The notes beneath the pieces were generated by a model. The model made no database searches. It was not told the origin of the DNA and was given only the letters and a program-made list of their open reading frames with translations. Both the position numbers and the translations under genes were made by a program. Below, piece after piece: positions 48,449 to 49,873 of a DNA stretch of 64,000 bases (its first letter is position 1; each line of letters begins with the position of its first letter). Where the stretch lies: contig JADZAI010000086.1 in the NCBI GenBank assembly GCA_020852655.1, positions 33,186 through 97,185 on the forward strand. The letters run 5' to 3'. Source of the DNA: Alphaproteobacteria bacterium (GTDB lineage Bacteria; Pseudomonadota; Alphaproteobacteria; Micropepsales; Micropepsaceae).

Positions 48449-49873
48449 GTGACAAAGCCTATTAGCAGAGCCTTGTTCGACCTACTTGCCATTGGGACAA
48501 GGCGAGCGATGACTCGCATTATGTCGACTGAGCGTTCTTGGTGGTCCAATCTCGACGGGACGTTGCTCGGCGCAGTCATTCTTGACCACACGGATAACGA
48601 TTTTGGGTGGGTGATTCTTGCCCGTGATACGGTTGGCCGATTTCGTTGCGTTGAGCTCAATATGAGCATGACGTCAGAACGAGTGGCGACGGCCGAGCTT
48701 CGGCTAGTGATCGCCGAGAAGGAGCGCGACCCGCTCTTTTTGGGGTATGAGTCTCAGGGTGACGAGCCAAACGACCTTCTTGACTTGCTCCAAGACAGAG
48801 GAATCCCCGACGGGAAGCTGCACCCGTATTTCAAAATTCTGCGAGACGAGCCGAGTAAGCATCCGGCACGAACGGTGCTTGCAGCCATTTCACCTTGGCT
48901 CCGGAGTTTCGATGCAAACCTAGTAAAGGAGTTTCAAGAAAGTCAGTTCGATCAACGCCTCTGGGAAGTCTATTTGTGGGCAACGTTGCGCGACCAGGGA
49001 TATGATGTCGAACATCATGAGGCTCCGGATTTGGTTGTATCGAGCCCGCTTGTGAAATTTTCAATCGAGGCAACAACAGTCGCGCCGTCCAAATCTGGCC
49101 CCTTGGCCACTCACCCTGAGCCAAGCACCCCGCACGAGTTTCTCGAATTCTTGGCCAACTATATGCCGATGAAATTTGGGTCACCATTGGTATCGAAGCT
49201 TAATAAAGTGGACGCGGCTGGAAGGCATTACTGGCAGAAACCCGGTCTCGAAGGTATTCCTTTCGTGATAGCCATCGCCGACTTCCACCAACCGGCGAAC
49301 ACGGAAGAACACAAACTTGGATCAATGACCTATAGTCAGAATGGCCTATACGCATACTTGTATGGCACAAGAGTGTCGGTCGAGAAGCAGGGTGATCAGA
49401 TCGTGCTCAAGAATACCCCAGTAACTGAGCACACCTACAATGGAAAGACTGTGCCATCTGGATTCTTTGATTTGCCAGACGCCGAAAATATTTCGGCAGT
49501 CGTATTCACCAACGCTGCCACTCTCTCAAAATTTGATCGTGTCGGCGTGATGGCCGGGTTTTGTCCTCCCGACCACAAATATATCCGTGTGGGTCATAGA
49601 TTTGATCCTGCACCAGAGGCCTTGGAAGGCATTCCGTTCAGCTCAGACGTTTCCGATCCGACATACGAAGAGTACTGGGGAGATGAGCTCCAAGTGTTTC
49701 ATAACCCAAAGGCCGTTCGACCGCTTCCCCCAGAAGCTTTCCCTGACGCCGCGCATTTCTTCTACGAAGACGGCCAACTGACAAGCATTGACCAAGGTGG
49801 CCGTGTGCTAGGTTCTTTCACGATGGCCTTGAAGATACTGTCCGATAGAGAGCGCCAGGCCGTGCCGAGCTGA
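48449..49873 (+). CDS. hypothetical protein, possible PD-(D/E)XK-like nuclease fold; accessory cargo gene
   Basis: 474 aa (GTG start; ATG starts at 48509/48521 possible). Segment FDQRLWEVYLWATLRDQGYDVEHHEAPDLVVSSPLVKFSIEATTV has the E..PD..(I)E-x pattern; low GC. Confidence 0.75.
   Translation: MTKPISRALFDLLAIGTRRAMTRIMSTERSWWSNLDGTLLGAVILDHTDNDFGWVILARDTVGRFRCVELNMSMTSERVATAELRLVIAEKERDPLFLGYESQGDEPNDLLDLLQDRGIPDGKLHPYFKILRDEPSKHPARTVLAAISPWLRSFDANLVKEFQESQFDQRLWEVYLWATLRDQGYDVEHHEAPDLVVSSPLVKFSIEATTVAPSKSGPLATHPEPSTPHEFLEFLANYMPMKFGSPLVSKLNKVDAAGRHYWQKPGLEGIPFVIAIADFHQPANTEEHKLGSMTYSQNGLYAYLYGTRVSVEKQGDQIVLKNTPVTEHTYNGKTVPSGFFDLPDAENISAVVFTNAATLSKFDRVGVMAGFCPPDHKYIRVGHRFDPAPEALEGIPFSSDVSDPTYEEYWGDELQVFHNPKAVRPLPPEAFPDAAHFFYEDGQLTSIDQGGRVLGSFTMALKILSDRERQAVPS

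Follow-up and report, generated by a model that had tools for sequence, protein, structure and literature searches.

A predicted PD-T7-1 family anti-phage gene lying alone between two copies of a tmRNA gene end in an alphaproteobacterium

The window, as the whole 64,000-nucleotide stretch of DNA under analysis is called here, contains a permuted ssrA gene for tmRNA that stays complete and specifies the tag ANDNEMALAA. The 3' end of its coding piece forms the left copy of a 40-bp direct repeat, which includes an 8-bp stem (GGTGGGGA / TCCCCACC), and an identical right copy lies beyond a short insert (Table 1). The start codon of the gene within this insert is found 41 nt past the left repeat and its stop ends 15 nt ahead of the right one. 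The reading frame between them is intact and is the sole substantial open reading frame (ORF) of the insert. The GTG start is plausible, since in a 23-sequence alignment the homologues begin in the same region. A promoter scan, specific to the sigma-70-like type, detected none between the left repeat and the GTG.

Table 1. Features of the ssrA locus, in window coordinates
Feature	Position	Strand	Details
Permuted ssrA (tmRNA), host target of the insert	48095..48407	+	Rfam RF01849 alpha_tmRNA, 223 bits, model 1-355; ARAGORN tmRNA*
Left 40-bp repeat (attL-like)	48368..48407	+	3' end of ssrA coding piece; 100% identical to right copy
Insert between repeats	48408..49888	+	1,481 bp; one gene; no integrase; 52.8% GC
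PD-T7-1 family ORF	48449..49873	+	474 aa; GTG start, TGA stop
Predicted PD-(D/E)XK-like core	48947..49282	+	Residues 167-278: E173, P193-D194, E207-A-T-T, K250, D278
Right 40-bp repeat (attR-like)	49889..49928	+	Copy of ssrA 3' end

The 40-bp repeat is present in two copies in the whole genome, with no third in an assembly that is 91% complete. The GC content of the insert is well below that of the window (66.6%), and the GC3 of the ORF is 56.5%, compared with 84-92% in five neighbouring genes. Together, the repeats and the foreign composition point to horizontal gain, and they bear out the suggestion of the preliminary description that the gene resides on a mini-island at ssrA. The usual order in the family is ssrA, an MFS gene and then an old-yellow-enzyme-like gene; here these two genes are located 6.4 kb past the right repeat (56.3-58.7 kb of the window). 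A reading of the repeat as a gene-cassette site was dropped, as attC sites carry a RYYYAAC core and the repeat has none. Upstream of ssrA, at 46563-47239, a gene for a PIN-domain protein (PF13470, 46811-47239) is adjoined by a small ORF on the minus strand, and the two are likely to represent a toxin-antitoxin pair.

The protein had initially been placed in a family without a name. It belongs, in fact, to PD-T7-1: residues 3-462 align with positions 2-448 of the 452-position PADLOC PD-T7-1 model (PDLC04073) with an E-value of 5.3e-143, and the model recovers every one of the 23 sequences in the alignment. The protein also matches phrog_8571 (E 1.5e-73) and, over residues 118-440, the PADLOC model for PD-T7-5 (E 3e-37). 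In contrast to PD-T7-1, the PD-T7-5 profile has 346 positions rather than 452, the N-terminal region is not covered and the match is clearly weaker. Searches of Pfam and NCBIfam returned zero matches, which explains why a reader working without tools saw no known domain, and a profile search for solved relatives by sequence gave chance-level matches alone. An RmuC-like domain is mentioned as a low-probability prediction (PMC10270631); the RmuC profile found no match in the protein in the Pfam search. The label "glycosaminoglycan attachment protein" attached to the records of some relatives was set aside, having no support in this analysis. A gene that looked unclassifiable thus carries the name of an anti-phage family. 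The evidence supports its being a horizontally gained member of a family already named, and both nuclease activity and phage defence are predicted for this protein.

PD-T7-1 was found in 2022 by a functional selection, in which fosmid clones from E. coli strains survived T7; it was validated against that phage, and its protection is stronger against T-even phages than against T7 itself; PD-T7-5 comes from the same study (Vassallo et al., PMC9519451). The PD-T7-1 of another strain, when overexpressed in K-12, gives protection against a Teseptimavirus and shrinks T7 plaques (PMC12409345). Like the founding system, the ORF encodes a single protein with a full-length profile match and a predicted PD-(D/E)XK-like domain. 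The anti-phage role earlier considered plausible for the gene gains weight from this match to an experimentally defined family, and it is from what is known of PD-T7-1 that we infer such an activity. Known carriers of the family are prophages, plasmids and defence islands, whereas the present ORF is alphaproteobacterial and lies in a one-gene ssrA insert with neither an integrase nor adjoining defence genes. It is therefore a new member of a known defence family, carried in an unusual setting.

A homologue is present in 6 of the 61 genomes searched, a set made up of the host's own genome, relatives and members of the class, and is found in none of the four other same-genus genomes searched. 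Relatives are encoded at 17 genome loci, at about 50% identity, and in 13 phage records, 91 plasmids and 14 viral contigs. The genes around 14 of the genome loci include integrases, resolvases, relaxases, a T4SS coupling protein, DNA methyltransferases, and pAgo, MADS and DrmMII matches, which describes the company the homologues keep rather than a measured enrichment over matched control loci. The homologues are sporadic, and the gene is not a vertically inherited housekeeping gene.

The less ordinary aspect of the locus is that a defence gene is found alone, without an integrase, between two host tmRNA gene ends. No integrase was found on the contig of the window, and no tyrosine integrase near ssrA in genomes G000-G022 among the matches listed. 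The integrases of the host genome, used as phmmer queries against the ORFs that follow ssrA in about 38 relatives, gave no match, in a search that divergent integrases could escape. The att repeat pattern is absent from the viral contigs, and no closely related empty ssrA site was found. Neither the 17 homologue loci nor a second PD-T7-1 locus in the host showed tRNA or tmRNA genes with flanking repeats like those at ssrA, so the arrangement is particular to this genome among the loci examined. The long repeats in L010 were rejected as element ends, as they reflect a gene-scale duplication with copies 13 kb apart.

The ssrA islands of Dehalococcoides provide the best analogy for the carrier. 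They too occupy ssrA and have direct repeats of its 3' end on either side, and 15 of the 31 have no integration genes and may be either cis-mobilizable or fixed (PMC3146451). In Dehalococcoides, however, integrase (DsiB) islands share the site, insertion is in the T-loop region and the repeat is 20 bp, whereas the present repeat corresponds to the coding piece's 3' end in a permuted tmRNA, the island carries a single gene, and searches for a helper came up empty. In some respects the insert also resembles a cis-mobilizable element (CIME), with attL/attR-like 40-bp repeats, one ORF, and no integration or transfer genes. We do not file it as one, since searches of the genome (91% complete), the contig, the surroundings of ssrA (among the matches listed) and the viral contigs showed no helper with a shared att site.

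The interpretation that we favour, and regard as likely, is that the ORF encodes a single-gene PD-T7-1 anti-phage effector with a PD-(D/E)XK nuclease domain, acquired as a one-gene ssrA element. Such an integrative element would have entered the permuted ssrA at its 3' end and left the 40-bp duplication as attL and attR. Integration would have been site-specific and mediated by a recombinase acting in trans, and mobilisation in trans may, more speculatively, also apply. Equally speculatively, the gene may be expressed by read-through from ssrA. Should the unit prove to be mobile, it would rank with the smallest defence-gene carriers and would show that defence genes need not travel in recognised phages, ICEs or islands.

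Two other accounts concern the carrier only. The insert could be a deletion remnant of a larger, integrase-bearing island, now a fixed and immobile scar with one useful gene. This is a serious contender, if somewhat the less probable side of an even bet, as the insert has no integrase, no tyrosine integrase accompanies ssrA in G000-G022 among the listed matches, and the Dehalococcoides islands without an integration module may themselves be cis-mobilizable or fixed. However, the narrow margins by which the gene nearly fills the insert, along with the identical repeats, suggest a compact unit more than a random deletion.

The second account, which we consider rather unlikely, is that a local tandem duplication or an illegitimate recombination event produced the ssrA repeat and that the gene came to lie between the copies by a route other than site-specific recombination. 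It draws on a survey of 53 ssrA loci in the family, of which about 10, counting the window, have a genuine second 3' hairpin downstream, mostly 70-93 nt off. These loci are L053, L060, L062, L070, L077, L079, L085, L089 and L091 along with the window, in which the second hairpin is 1,521 nt from the first. At the others a second, and at times a third, copy is found 68-93 nt downstream (512 nt in L085), and one locus has a tandem array of 68-nt units. No integrase was seen beside the duplicated hairpins, a second point in favour of this account. In L085 and L089, however, the two hairpins have different stems, each self-paired, which is easier to reconcile with incoming DNA having replaced the 3' end than with slippage. 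At distances above 2 kb or on the opposite strand, the same hairpin motif occurs only 5 times in about 490 kb. Motif matches at +282 in L057 and +291 in L090 have no stem and were discarded as chance, and entries at +56 to +60 (L069, L071 and the window) are the genuine 3' hairpin, its distance having been measured from a preceding motif match.

A broader extension of the one-gene element, and one that we hold doubtful, is that the 3' hairpin of the permuted ssrA in this family acts as a recurrent landing site for tiny integrase-less elements, which would range from empty 70-90-nt units to one-gene units, be moved in trans by a recombinase and perhaps be expressed by ssrA read-through. The 512-nt unit between the ssrA 3' copies in L085 (G026:C46) contains a single ORF, about 120 codons long and opening with a signal-peptide-like stretch, and a further ssrA fragment of roughly 92 nt; it is possibly another one-gene ssrA insert. 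In L055 (G006:C8), a 240-aa ORF without a Pfam match lies between the ssrA end and a topoisomerase IV subunit B-like gene; a second ssrA end was not found there.

An AlphaFold2 model of the whole protein, built with the 23-sequence alignment, has a mean pLDDT of 87 and a pTM of 0.89. The modelled order across residues 167-278 is helix, three strands, helix and strand, which is the order of the PD-(D/E)XK core. Helix 167-182 contains E173 and is followed by strands 186-189, 195-198 and 203-211, of which the second comes straight after P193-D194 and the third holds E207-A-T-T; helix 228-252 and strand 272-278 complete the core. Across the set of 23, in which homologues are 27-52% identical to the query, R170, W172, E173, P193, D194, E207, A208 and K250 are invariant, so that the motif I Glu (E173), the motif II PD (P193-D194) and the motif III acidic residue (E207) are present in every sequence and the motif extends beyond chance. 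The PD-(D/E)XK-like core first proposed by eye, with its helix bearing a Glu, its PD and its strand with E207 (residues 167-211), is thereby corroborated in the predicted structure.

Foldseek searches with the whole model against the PDB and viral libraries returned nothing significant, with no match at E 0.001, and for this reason the core was modelled separately (pLDDT 73). With the core alone, Holliday-junction (Hjc) resolvases fill the first six ranks, with E-values of 0.02-0.1, none reaching 0.001, and probabilities of up to 1.0, followed at lower ranks by R2 endonucleases, EcoRV, Bax1, I-Ssp6803I and FokI. All of these we take to be PD-(D/E)XK folds. The predicted fold is not unrelated to nucleases, and the assignment to PD-(D/E)XK is well supported by the model, from which a catalytic function may in turn be proposed.

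The earlier remark that the final Lys of the motif is replaced, as EAT, holds in that every one of the 23 sequences has Thr or Val at position 209, where the motif III Lys is expected. In the model, the invariant K250 falls within helix 228-252, the next core helix after the third strand, and it is probably a migrated stand-in for the absent residue. A survey of PD-(D/E)XK proteins describes several families in which the motif III Lys has shifted into the helix that follows core strand three (PMC1913061). Among these, DUF506, DUF790 and DUF1626 likewise have no motif III Lys and conserve a basic residue in that helix, and Thr is frequent in motif III of DUF1626, but the ORF protein has no detectable sequence kinship to any Pfam family. 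That the protein has instead a catalytically dead nuclease fold, which binds nucleic acid or senses phage while another part defends, would accord with the Thr or Val at motif III and with the strong conservation outside the core of H418-N419-P420, Y303 and R364, which could make another active site, but it is unlikely given that E173, D194 and E207 are all invariant, as a working metal site would need, and that an invariant Lys in the next core helix is a known substitution.

For a PD-T7-1 effector with an active nuclease, E173, D194 and E207 would hold the metal, K250 from the following helix would replace the missing Lys, and DNA cleavage would be metal-dependent. The target would most likely be phage DNA or, in an abortive response, the DNA of the host, and the N- and C-terminal regions flanking the nuclease domain probably sense infection or bind DNA. 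A review table assigns a PD-(D/E)XK domain to PD-T7-1 and PD-T7-5 (PMC10952713), and the published text consulted on PD-T7-1 is silent on DNA cleavage as a mechanism and on mutation of the predicted site. The candidate active site, with its probable migrated Lys, addresses this gap in the accounts consulted.

Several further family members were encountered. The second PD-T7-1 paralogue in the host (G000:C92:8212-9525, L002) is 39% identical, is found on a separate 10.6-kb contig and adjoins a YspA-type SLOG-family gene. In Pararhodobacter marinus (L018, 8013-9415) the homologue seems to be interrupted by a premature stop or a frameshift, with a first open frame of 272 aa and two tblastn segments. 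Finally, the homologue in L134 (G009:C4:17000-34000) is about 7 kb from a tyrosine integrase and near genes for ParB-like and GAF-domain proteins.
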